DNA from: Pseudomonadota bacterium
Lineage (GTDB): Bacteria; Desulfobacterota; Syntrophia; Syntrophales; JADFWA01
DNA length: 9,443 nucleotides
Reading direction: 5' to 3'
Assembly (NCBI GenBank): GCA_030610915.1
Contig: JAUWQS010000045.1
Location: 1 to 9,443, forward strand
This document shows, in pieces, positions 2,991 through 9,120 of the stretch (its first letter is position 1; each line of letters begins with the position of its first letter). Under the pieces are notes generated by a model. That model was not told the DNA's origin and made no database searches. It worked only from the letters and a program-made list of their open reading frames with translations. Position numbers and translations under genes: made by a program.

Positions 2991-3221
2991 ATGCCTAAAA
3001 AAGATGGGAGTGGCCCTCCCGGTGGGAGCGGCCCTGGAACAGGAACGGGTATAGGCAGAGGAGGAGGAGGCAGAGGCAGGATGGGAGGCACCAGACCTGG
3101 GTCTGGTCCCGGTGGAGAGTGTGTCTGCCCCAATTGCGGAACAACTGCTCCTCATCAACAGGGGATCCCTTGTACCCAGATAAGCTGTCCAAATTGCGGC
3201 GCCAGTATGGTAAAGAAGTAA
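2991..3221 (+). CDS. Gly-rich zinc-ribbon miniprotein
   Basis: This 76-residue protein has two parts. Residues 1-43 form a low-complexity Gly/Pro/Arg tail (GIGRGGGGRGRMGGTRPG is typical). Residues 44-76 hold a compact metal-binding module: C44-x-C46-x2-C49, H55, C61, and C66-x2-C69, followed by GASMVKK. Six Cys and one His in this layout suggest a zinc ribbon or rubredoxin-like knuckle. Similar Gly-rich proteins with a C-terminal CPxCG pair are familiar from anaerobic Desulfobacterota and Nitrospirota, but I know of no assigned function. Start 2991 has a strong purine-rich RBS (AAAGGGGGGAA at 2975-2985). Upstream in-frame codons from 2919 overlap the GT4 gene and lack the family pattern. The 26-nt gap to the GT4 gene suggests cotranscription. 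It could be a nucleic-acid-binding, metal-handling or scaffold protein. The frame is good and the function unknown. Confidence 0.8.
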   Translation: MPKKDGSGPPGGSGPGTGTGIGRGGGGRGRMGGTRPGSGPGGECVCPNCGTTAPHQQGIPCTQISCPNCGASMVKK

Positions 3222-3244
3222 GGTATCAGCTCAATAAATAGTGG
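3222..3244 (+). repeat. Solo left end of the MITE-like element found at 6410-6652
   Basis: The 17-mer GGTATCAGCTCAATAAA (3222-3238) is identical to 6409-6425, and similarity continues as TAGTGGG versus CAGGGG. In both places it begins almost directly after a stop codon (TAA 3219-3221 here). No matching right end or flanking duplication is seen before the next gene. This copy is therefore truncated or overwritten by the adjacent CCCTCACCC element. Confidence 0.6.
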
Positions 3245-4827: not shown

Positions 4828-6402
4828 ATGGAAAAAGGCTACCTTTGCATGATCCTGCATGCCCATCTCCCCTTTGTCAGGCATCCCGAAGAAGAGGATT
4901 TTCTGGAGGAATACTGGTTCTTTGAAGCGATCACTGAAACCTATCTCCCTTTAATCACCGTGATGGATGACCTGATAAGGCAGGGCGTTGATTTTCGCTT
5001 AACCATGTCCTTGACACCTCCTCTGATTACTATGCTTGGGGACCCGCTTTTGCAGTCCCGCTACCTTAAAAGGTTAAATAAACTTCTTGAACTGACGGAA
5101 AATGAGCTGGTGAGGACAAGAGCCCAGCCGGAGTTTTTTCACCTGGCACGGATGTATCGCGAGGACTTCCTTAAAAAGAGAGAGGTCTTCCAGGGCTTAG
5201 GGGGCAATTTGCTTTCCGCCTTTAAAAAGTTTCAGGAGCTTGGAAAATTGGAGATTCTTGCTTCGTGCGCCACTCATGGATTTCTGCCGTTGTTGAACGT
5301 AAATCCTTCTGCGGTGAAGGCTCAAATTGAGGTGGGGATTGACTGTTATGAGGAGGTTTTTGGGACCAGACCACGTGGTTTTTGGCTTCCCGAGTGTGGT
5401 TATTATCCTGGACTGGATGAGATTCTTAAGAATTCGGGTGTCAAATATTTTCTCCTGGAAAGCCACGGCATCTTAAATGCCACACCCTTTCCTGAATGCG
5501 GGGTTTATGCCCCTGTATTTTGCGAGTCAGGGGTGGCGGCTTTTGGACGGGATGATACGGCTTCCAAACAGGTCTGGGATGCCTTTACCGGTTATCCCGG
5601 CGACTTTGACTATCGTGAATTCTACCGTGACATCGCCTATGAGCAGGACTATCAATATATTAAACCTCATATCCCCGGTGAGGTCAGGGTTGATTCCGGT
5701 ATAAAATACTATCGAATAACGGGAAAGAACGGGGATAAACAACCTTATAATCCTGAGTGGGCAAGAGAAAAGGCTGCTGCTCATGCAGGAAATTTCATGT
5801 TCAATCGTGAAAAACAGGTGGAATCTCTTTCCGGTGCTATGGATCGGAAGCCTGTTATTATTGCCGCTTATGATGCCGAGCTTTTCGGCCACTGGTGGTT
5901 TGAGGGGCCCCTGTGGCTGGAGTTTTTGATGAAGAAAATTTACTATGACCAGCAGACCATAAAACTTGCCACCCCTTCTGAATATCTAACAGAGTATCCC
6001 GCAGGCCAGGTCTGCGTGCCTTCCGCTTCCAGTTGGGGAGAGAAGGGATATAATGAGATATGGTTAAATGGAAGCAACGAATGGATTTACCCTCACTTGC
6101 ATATCTGCGCCAAGAGGATGGAAGAGATGGCCAGAGGCTTTCCTCATGCCGGAGGTGTTGTCCGCAGGGCTTTAAACCAGGCGGCAAGAGAGCTTCTGCT
6201 GGCTCAGAGCAGTGACTGGGCCTTTATCATGCATAATGGAACCCAGGTAGAATATGCCGTGAGAAGAGTAAAGGAGCATATCGGAAGATTTAACAAGTTA
6301 TACCAGGATATCAAACAGGGGAAGATTGATAAGCTGTGGCTGGACTGGATCGAACAAAAAAACAGTATATTTCCCCATATCGATTATCGGGTCTATGGAT
6401 AG
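4828..6402 (+). CDS. GH57 1,4-alpha-glucan branching enzyme (DUF1957 type)
   Basis: This 524-residue protein matches the GH57 branching enzymes known from Thermus and Thermococcus in length and motifs. Region 1 is LHAHLPFVRHP (H11 and H13). Region 2 is ATHGFLPLL. Region 3 is FWLPECGYYPG with E189 as the nucleophile. Region 4 is AYDAELFGHWWFEG with D349 as the acid/base residue. The C-terminal helical domain has SSWGEKGYNEIWLNGSNEW and SDWAFIMHNG. The stretch VAAFGRDDTASKQVWDAF, GYPGDFDYREFYRD is also characteristic of the branching type. It would create alpha-1,6 branches in cytoplasmic glycogen, replacing the GH13 GlgB that is absent here. GAGG of the preceding stop region (4815-4820) serves as the RBS, 7 nt before ATG 4828. 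Its stop (TAG 6400-6402) abuts the MITE-like insertion, and the coding sequence itself is intact. Confidence 0.93.
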   Translation: MEKGYLCMILHAHLPFVRHPEEEDFLEEYWFFEAITETYLPLITVMDDLIRQGVDFRLTMSLTPPLITMLGDPLLQSRYLKRLNKLLELTENELVRTRAQPEFFHLARMYREDFLKKREVFQGLGGNLLSAFKKFQELGKLEILASCATHGFLPLLNVNPSAVKAQIEVGIDCYEEVFGTRPRGFWLPECGYYPGLDEILKNSGVKYFLLESHGILNATPFPECGVYAPVFCESGVAAFGRDDTASKQVWDAFTGYPGDFDYREFYRDIAYEQDYQYIKPHIPGEVRVDSGIKYYRITGKNGDKQPYNPEWAREKAAAHAGNFMFNREKQVESLSGAMDRKPVIIAAYDAELFGHWWFEGPLWLEFLMKKIYYDQQTIKLATPSEYLTEYPAGQVCVPSASSWGEKGYNEIWLNGSNEWIYPHLHICAKRMEEMARGFPHAGGVVRRALNQAARELLLAQSSDWAFIMHNGTQVEYAVRRVKEHIGRFNKLYQDIKQGKIDKLWLDWIEQKNSIFPHIDYRVYG

Positions 6403-6409
6403 AAATATG
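6402..6409 (+). repeat. Left target-site duplication of the MITE-like element (GAAATATG)
   Basis: GAAATATG here is repeated exactly at 6653-6660. The first G is the last base of the branching-enzyme stop codon. The core AAATAT (6403-6408) is the minimum duplication if the bordering G bases belong to the element or match by chance. Confidence 0.65.
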
Positions 6410-6652
6410 GTATCAGCTCAATAAACAGGGGATTACATTTTTGAAATGTTGGTCTCGATCCACGATAAGCGTTCACTGAACGTTGAAATTAGAAATTGGA
6501 AATTTGGCCTTCATGTTTTTTACTGTCAACTCGCAAACTTGTTTCATCGCTCCCAAATTTCTACTTTCCAATTTCAAGTTTCAAGCTGTGAACGGCTACG
6601 ATCCACAATCATTCTTACATGCCTGAATTGGCCCTATTTATTGAGATAATAC
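6410..6652. mobile_element. MITE-like, largely palindromic non-coding insertion with terminal inverted repeats
   Basis: This element is about 243 bp. Its left end GTATCAGCTCAATAAACAGGG (6410-6430) is the imperfect inverted copy of the right end (6632-6652, reading GTATTATCTCAATAAATAGGG on the minus strand). About 18 of 21 positions match. A second, inner pair of inverted arms lies at 6468-6507 and 6553-6597. These share AGC(C)GTTCAC at the outer side and GAAATTTGG at the inner side, with A/T-rich GAAATT motifs between and a 45-nt centre. A small hairpin, ACATTT-TTG-AAATGT, sits at 6435-6449. The element is flanked by the direct repeat GAAATATG. No transposase is encoded, and the open frame at 6446-6649 looks accidental. 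Family assignment is not possible from memory, and any mobilising transposase must be elsewhere in the genome. Confidence 0.7.
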
Positions 6653-6660
6653 GAAATATG
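6653..6660 (+). repeat. Right target-site duplication of the MITE-like element (GAAATATG), containing the DUF4912 start codon
   Basis: This is an exact copy of 6402-6409. Its last three bases are ATG 6658-6660, the proposed start of the DUF4912 gene. Confidence 0.65.
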
Positions 6661-7200
6661 CTTACCTGTTGTCCAAGATGTTCTTTTTATGATACCTGTG
6701 AACTCAAATGGTATCGAGAAGAAAGTGGAGAAGCCCAGCTTTGTTGTAATAGATGTGAGTGGTTCGACCAATGCATGGTGAAGGAAACAGAAGAAGAGAT
6801 AAAGGAGTTGCCGGCAGTCGATGGGGATAGCAGGGTAGTGCTCATGGTGATTGACCCCTTTCATGTCCATGCTTATTGGGAGATAACGTCTCATACGTGG
6901 GAGAAAATCAAAGATGAGCTTGAAGGAGAGTTCGATCAGACCAGAAAGGTACTCCGTGTATATGACACAGCCTATATTATCTTCGATGGAGCCAATGCCA
7001 ACAGTTATTTTGATATATATGTGGGTGACGCTGCCAACTGGTATATAGATCTCCTGGGTCCGGAAAAATCAATATGCGCCGACTTCGGATTGCTTACACC
7101 TCAGGGGAAATTTTACACTCTGGTCAGATCCAATTTCGTCCATACCCCCAGGAATGGACCATCAGAAAAGAGAGAAGTGAAACGGCTTGAAAGTGGTTAG
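6658..7200 (+). CDS. DUF4912 protein with an N-terminal Cys-rich segment
   Basis: This 180-residue protein has an N-terminal metal-binding-like segment: C4, C5, C8, C14, C29, C30, C33 and C39, that is CCPRC and CCNRC each followed by a further Cys. A DUF4912 domain covers about residues 51-165. Its hallmarks are DSRVVLMVIDPFHVHAYWEIT (57-77, in which YWE is diagnostic), VLRVYDTAYIIFDG, FDIYVGDAANWYIDL and LVRSNFVHTPR. DUF4912 proteins commonly sit beside GH57 and glycogen genes. The YWE beta-sandwich look suggests a carbohydrate- or protein-binding module, which is an inference. An in-frame ATG at 6619 lies inside the MITE-like insertion, so the first 13 residues it would add are insertion-derived. 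ATG 6658 is preferred because removing the insertion leaves it 4 nt after the branching-enzyme stop codon. No strong SD precedes either start, so expression may depend on weak initiation or have been altered by the insertion. Confidence 0.85.
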   Translation: MLTCCPRCSFYDTCELKWYREESGEAQLCCNRCEWFDQCMVKETEEEIKELPAVDGDSRVVLMVIDPFHVHAYWEITSHTWEKIKDELEGEFDQTRKVLRVYDTAYIIFDGANANSYFDIYVGDAANWYIDLLGPEKSICADFGLLTPQGKFYTLVRSNFVHTPRNGPSEKREVKRLESG

Positions 7201-7264
7201 TGATCAGTGGTCAGTGGTCAGTGAACAGTATTTTATGACCACTGACCACTGACCACTGACCACT
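7199..7264. repeat. Long inverted repeat built from TCAGTGG heptamers
   Basis: The 25-nt left arm 7199-7223 and right arm 7240-7264 are inverted copies with one mismatch, around a 16-nt loop. Each arm is a tandem of a 7-bp unit (TCAGTGG, or CCACTGA on the complement). The left arm starts inside the TAG stop codon of the DUF4912 gene. The transcript would form a very stable stem-loop between DUF4912 and glgA. There is no T-tract after it, so mRNA stabilisation, processing or a dispersed repeat is likelier than intrinsic termination. The rest of the 148-bp gap holds the glgA ribosome binding site and no gene. Confidence 0.8.
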
Positions 7265-8827: not shown

Positions 8828-8919
8828 TAATAAAAAGGACTCAGCCACAGATTCACACAGATGAACGCAGACAGGTTTAAATACAAAGAAATCACGTGAC
8901 TATACAGGTGGGTAGGCTG

Positions 8920-8940
8920 AAGACTGTTAGTCTTTTAATT
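8920..8940 (+). terminator. Possible weak terminator of glgA
   Basis: AAGACT (8920-8925) pairs with AGTCTT (8929-8934) around a 3-nt loop, and TTAATT follows. The stem is short and AT-rich and lies about 93 nt after the glgA stop codon, so this is a tentative call. Confidence 0.25.
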
Positions 8941-8951
8941 GTAAGGTTCTT

Positions 8952-8980
8952 GCCTGCCTGTGCCGACACGGCAGGCAGGC
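8952..8980. repeat. GCCTGCCTG / CAGGCAGGC palindrome
   Basis: GCCTGCCTG (8952-8960) and CAGGCAGGC (8972-8980) are perfect inverted 9-mers. An inner CCG-ACA-CGG pairing (8963-8971) makes a nearly continuous GC-rich hairpin, followed by GCAGACAGGCAG. There is no T-tract. Palindromes of this GCCTGCC type are common dispersed intergenic repeats. It sits inside the 8843-9105 segment. Confidence 0.6.
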
Positions 8981-9120
8981 GCAGACAGGCAGAAATGACA
9001 AAAGAATTTAAAACTATTACGAAAGTTCGAAAATTACGAAATAACTGTGTGGGGACAGGAAATAGGAGAAAAAATATCAGTGATGATCCGTGTAGATCGG
9101 TGGCTAAATAACTACAAAAG

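Follow-up and report, generated by a model that had tools for sequence, protein, structure and literature searches.

A nested MITE between the branching-enzyme and DUF4912 genes of a glycogen operon in a Syntrophales bacterium

The window, by which we mean the whole stretch of 9,443 nucleotides that was analysed (contig JAUWQS010000045.1 of a Syntrophales bacterium), contains a branching-enzyme gene followed by a DUF4912 gene, in a cluster that has the glycogen genes glgC upstream and glgA downstream. The junction of the two genes is occupied by a MITE that encloses a second MITE, and another copy of the outer family lies further upstream. The features are as follows.

3215..3222, + strand: left target duplication, GAAGTAAG, of the second outer copy; both duplicates are present in the related locus L001
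3223..3346 (right limit approximate), no strand: second, older copy of the outer family
4828..6402, + strand: GH57-type 1,4-alpha-glucan branching enzyme (PF03065 and PF09210 BE_C matches)
6402..6409, + strand: left target duplication copy, GAAATATG, 8 bp; a single copy stands in the empty site of L001
6410..6652, no strand: composite MITE, 243 bp
6410..6430, + strand: left inverted end of the outer MITE
6457..6464, + strand: left flank duplication of the inner element, GATCCACG, 7 of 8 bases identical to the right copy
6465..6599, no strand: nested inner MITE, an A+T-rich palindrome
6600..6607, + strand: right flank duplication of the inner element, GATCCACA
6632..6652, - strand: right inverted end of the outer MITE
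6653..6660, + strand: right target duplication copy, GAAATATG, which includes the DUF4912 ATG (6658-6660)
6658..7200, + strand: DUF4912 protein gene (PF16258, E 4.3e-30), with an alternative in-frame ATG at 6619

The outer element is flanked by exact copies of GAAATATG, and its ends, GTATCAGCTCAATAAACAGGG and GTATTATCTCAATAAATAGGG, are imperfect inverted repeats with 18 of 21 positions identical. In the excerpts of PMC10969869, prokaryotic MITEs are described as short elements with inverted ends, direct repeats in the younger copies, many, mostly intergenic, copies, and a full-length partner that shares the ends. The element agrees with this description in its length (243 bp, below 500 bp), in the absence of a transposase gene, and in terminal repeats within the range of about 4-30 bp; the sole listed + strand ORF lying wholly within it (6446-6649, 67 aa) has no Pfam match. 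The branching-enzyme TAG (6400-6402), whose last base belongs to the target duplication, and the DUF4912 ATG are both intact around the insertion. The left duplication retains a stranded ATG (6407-6409), from which a stub of five codons now runs to a stop within the terminal repeat. The initial annotation had described a MITE-like insertion with imperfect inverted ends, which had duplicated its target in a 4-nt intergenic gap and preserved both genes. Its coordinates prove to be exact, the duplication is 8 bp long, both codons are kept, and the empty site exists.

This empty site is found in the closest relative recovered. A scan of a genome collection gave two loci from nine candidate stretches. 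One of them, a Spirochaetaceae locus, is 50% identical and lacks a branching-enzyme/DUF4912 junction. The other, L001, is a 7021-bp contig of the MAG Pseudomonadota bacterium CSMAG_2437 (its genome is G001 below), and its branching enzyme is 93% identical to that of the window. The L001 junction has no insert and runs GGATAG-AAAT-ATGCTTACC (stop, AAAT, ATG), read as GGTCTATGGATAGAAATATGCTTACC. A search with the DUF4912 protein gave three matches (P0001, P0002 and P0003) from 17 candidates. The N-terminus of P0001 (92% identity), MLYSPISTTGSMDRNMLTCC, is the uninterrupted junction read in that frame, and its sequence differs from L001, which implies a second empty allele at the protein level. 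Among 149 genomes DUF4912 was matched at E 1e-15 in G001 alone, so that this set offered no additional empty sites to count. The predicted junction TAG-AAATATG, obtained in the initial annotation by removing the element and one repeat, is thus found letter for letter in L001 and is implied by P0001. The reconstruction was right, and relatives still show the uninterrupted form.

The further claim that the insertion fixes the start of DUF4912 does not hold. The empty site has an in-frame ATG 12 nt upstream (ATG GAT AGA AAT ATG), overlapping the branching-enzyme stop, and in the window the in-frame ATG at 6619, inside the element, would add 13 residues to the protein. P0001 is called from further upstream still than the ATG 12 nt upstream. 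DUF4912 most likely starts at the ATG at 6658, since P0002 and P0003 begin there (MLTCC); the insertion itself gives no proof of it.

Other repeats are also present in this operon, and they differ between the two lineages. A dispersed repeat of about 270 bp at 8839-9110 of the window is matched many times in G001 and in part in another genome, G019. L001 has a copy of it between DUF4912 and glgA (6524-6795 of L001), where the window has none. The window has, between the same two genes (7192-7264), an imperfect palindrome of GGTCAGTGGTCAGTG-like units, 84% identical by self-alignment, and one outer MITE copy of G001 (the 300-bp element of L012) encloses a stretch that resembles it.

The outer element belongs to a MITE family with 8-bp target duplications. 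Its copy number was measured in the relative G001, an incomplete genome of 1.6 Mb in many contigs, while for the organism of the window the analysis covered the two copies inside the window. In G001 the end pattern is matched 127 times (66 and 61) at up to three mismatches, against 1 and 2 with a reversed control. Across 119 genomes (G001 and its relatives), at up to two mismatches, 43 have any match to the end pattern, which is enriched only in G001 (57 and 45) and G019 (9 and 6); the other 117 have 0 to 4 end matches each, with 0 to 2 in the control. Similarity over the whole element was found in three of 41 genomes, namely G001, G002 and G019. Searches of plasmid and phage collections by blastn gave no match to the element, and viral contigs contained neither a match to two exact end patterns nor a DUF4912 gene.

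Thirty-five paired copies were recovered in the loci examined, which cover part of the G001 copies (40 of 144 candidates were scored, and the end matches are those listed). L006 and L058, where the contig ends, were omitted from the duplication counts, leaving 33 copies: 31 from G001, one from G019, and that of the window. The 8-bp duplication is exact in eight of these, has 7 of 8 bases in three, and has 6 or fewer in 22. Among 1122 mismatched flank pairings there were no exact duplications and six at 7 of 8 bases, and of the lengths from 4 to 12 none but 8 stands clearly above the control. When 96 distinct ends were compared, 12 pairs had exactly complementary 8-bp flanks, against none of 4560 reversed pairings and one in a shifted control. 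The exact-duplication copies account for eight of these pairs, one is the right end in L001 re-paired with the orthologous left end of the window, and two unite halves of elements on different contigs; the pair formed by L012 and L140 may be due to chance or recombination. Other genomic copies with inverted ends and duplications, which the initial annotation had suggested looking for, do exist in G001. It had also named copies lacking duplications as evidence against the model. Such copies do occur, in 22 of the 33 cases, but the exact class (8 of 33 against 0 of 1122) lies far above chance, and so the 22 are read as probably decayed, recombined or misassembled.

Several outer copies have only their ends in common and enclose unrelated palindromic cores; it looks as though a single shell of ends had taken up repeats of several families. 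In L053, L058, L140 and L146, all from G001, ends of an identical type, 21 bp long, surround quite different palindromic cores.

In the window, the core is itself a MITE. Similarity in G019 is often limited to about positions 57-190 of the outer element (window 6466-6599), and this inner unit has inverted ends of its own and occurs without the outer shell in G019 and G002. It begins ATAAGCG in the window and GTAAGCG in many G001 copies, and has GTAGCCG at the other end. Exact 8-bp duplications flank it in seven of 62 listed pairings (six copies in G019 and one in G002), some of the 62 being alternative pairings of one copy. Mixed pairings gave seven exact cases in 3721, although this control is not clean because nested copies share flanks. 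The inner flanks of nested G001 copies mostly have 5 or 6 of 8 bases identical. Thirteen of the 35 outer copies were found by script to contain the inner motif, and six more (L003, L005, L008, L017, L021 and L025) were recognised by eye. The inner unit sits at the same point of the outer shell in the copies that bear it, and L049 and L051 are outer shells in which that point is empty. An exact outer duplication accompanies the inner unit in L004, L007 and the window. The outer element is thus a composite with a second MITE nested within it, most simply explained by a single nesting event after which the composite spread.

The second outer copy in the window (3223 to about 3346) has lost its right end by deletion. 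Its intact orthologue in L001 (2722-2864, 143 bp) keeps both duplicates. The TAA (3219-3221) that closes a small gene lies within the duplicated GAAGTAAG; this gene has weak zinc-ribbon matches, below cut-off. The insertion at 3223 is older than the split between the window and L001 lineages. The insertion at 6410-6652 is most simply placed after that split.

With high confidence, we explain the locus by the insertion, at GAAATATG between the branching-enzyme and DUF4912 genes, of a non-autonomous, high-copy composite MITE mobilised in trans with 8-bp staggered cuts. The outer family, with ends GTA(T/A)...CTCAATAAA(T/C)AGGG, is present in high copy number and, being non-autonomous, would depend on a transposase supplied from elsewhere, probably a DDE enzyme. 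A different MITE would first have jumped into an outer MITE, and the composite would then have spread by means of the outer ends. A copy in the lineage of the window would have inserted at GAAATATG, which straddles the branching-enzyme stop and the DUF4912 start. Because the target straddles both codons, its duplication would have regenerated both, and neither gene would have been broken. The change at the junction would, on this account, be a gain.

The mobilising enzyme proposed in this account, a DDE transposase working in trans, is suggested by the inverted ends and the 8-bp duplications. No full-length partner with the ends of the element, which the initial annotation had proposed to look for, was found among four transposase families in G001 or G019, both as assembled and the former incomplete. 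PF03050 occurs in eight of 60 genomes and in neither G001 nor G019; PF12762 is found in neither of the two; PF00872 has no match in G001 and two partial ones in G019; and PF01609 is represented by one gene in G001 and six in G019. The PF01609 gene of G001 is of the IS701 type, lacks matching ends, and was set aside as mobiliser. Unpaired ends were listed in 40 stretches, and ORFs up to 1.6 kb inside 24 such ends were viewed by eye. Ten of these ORFs, all beside ends in G001, included no transposase by Pfam; eight had other or weak matches and two had none.

A divergent IS66-like transposase of 555 aa (L157:291-2213, in genome G004; NF033517 at 97.9 bits, below its cut-off) lies between GTATCCTATTCAAAA inverted ends, which bear only a loose resemblance to the MITE ends described here. 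It shows no clear duplication by eye and has no match in G001, matches being confined to two of 197 genomes. It is possibly a distant relative of the missing mobiliser, and an IS66-like enzyme is at best a lead. Inner-type ends also occur in two G019 loci, L171 (2605) and L172 (1030), which have sub-threshold PF01609 matches (16.8 and 16.9 bits) as well; these matches are a possible lead to the mobiliser of the inner element.

Two other explanations of the junction were considered. The window may show the older state, with the element ancestral and lost precisely, together with one duplicate, in the relatives. A deletion between two 8-bp repeats would yield the same empty site. However, both L001 and P0001 are empty, which would call for two precise losses or for one in a shared ancestor, and L001 has kept its other orthologous copy of the family (2722-2864) without excision; we consider such a loss very improbable. 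Equally hard to credit is a retained functional intergenic element (a terminator, a processing hairpin or a small RNA) that merely resembles a transposon. The RNA of the element does fold more stably than shuffled sequences (z -3.2), and the excerpts of PMC10969869 state that MITEs are able to affect transcripts, but the element has no terminator-like site, no excess of promoters and no Rfam match at the gathering score. Moreover, it is absent from this junction in relatives, and its family consists of many dispersed copies with 8-bp duplications. Insertion of the composite MITE, the preferred reading, is compatible with some influence on the host genes: given the stable fold, though there is no terminator-like site, the element may possibly affect the operon, for example through DUF4912 translation or mRNA stability.

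A separate proposal, which would add to the insertion model and is not exclusive of it, is that the transposase prefers stop codons or the 3' ends of genes, and that the precise sparing of genes is due to the enzyme and not to survivor bias. In both window copies the duplication takes in a stop codon, either whole or by its last base. Crude ORF calling places 31 of the 33 insertions between genes, or 32 when ORF lengths are set more strictly. Of the 31, nine fall no more than 20 bp from the 3' end of an ORF, where intergenic positions would predict 3.8 (P 0.009), and one falls that close to a 5' end, where 4.4 would be predicted. With stricter lengths the 3' counts were 8 of 32 (2.8 expected, P 0.005) and 7 of 32 (2.3 expected, P 0.006). 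At 10 bp, however, the excess is weak (P 0.036 to 0.064), the ORF calls are crude, nearly all copies come from one incomplete genome, the counts include copies without a duplication, and the nine include the window copy, itself selected because it sits at a stop codon. Most insertions lie away from stop codons, and selection against 5' insertions would yield the same pattern, which fits either target choice or the loss of harmful 5' insertions. A preference for 3' ends is, in our view, unlikely. We would put no more trust in a broader picture of nested families, in which the composite spreads, the outer transposase favours gene 3' ends, and the duplications rebuild stop and start codons, so that the elements could move through packed operons without cost. 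If the bias were true, it would bear on how mobile elements persist in dense genomes.

The locus is of interest as a clean, independently confirmed case in which an empty site was predicted from one copy by sequence alone. The insertion in the glycogen operon can be ordered relative to that at 3223, and the nested layers can also be ordered in time. No description of this MITE family was found in a survey of the literature. A text search on ten bases of the ends gave, among the matches listed, none on MITEs by title, and no literature was found on MITEs in Desulfobacterota. The kind of element is already known.

Among the known systems, the IS66 family has ends starting GTAAGCG and 8-bp direct repeats, according to the excerpts of PMC11946415. 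The outer and inner MITEs share with this description the 8-bp repeats and ends beginning GTA, and many inner copies in G001 start GTAAGCG at one end. In contrast to that description, the outer ends start GTATCAG or GTAATAG and no transposase gene lies inside; the inner MITE of the window starts ATAAGCG, and those inner copies of G019 and G002 that have exact duplications begin GTAACTG, GTAACCG, GTAGCCG or GCAACCG. The setting also differs, since neither G001 nor G019 has a PF03050 gene. TIMEs, the miniature elements derived from Tn3, are likewise non-autonomous and proposed to be mobilised in trans, but as excerpted from PMC4133298 they have Tn3-type ends, duplications of 5-6 bp, and usually a single copy. 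A close precedent, likened here by its description, with ends and duplications outside the comparison, is Chunjie, a MITE of Geobacter uraniireducens. In the excerpts of PMC10969869 it is 235 bp long, with 37 further copies that have conserved ends and direct repeats and 57 partial ones; nesting is not mentioned in these excerpts, whereas the element of the window is nested. The title of the paper cited there (Chen et al. 2008, Genetics 179:2291) reports insertion into an operon with its structure undisturbed. The element between the branching-enzyme and DUF4912 genes is an ordinary kind of bacterial MITE.
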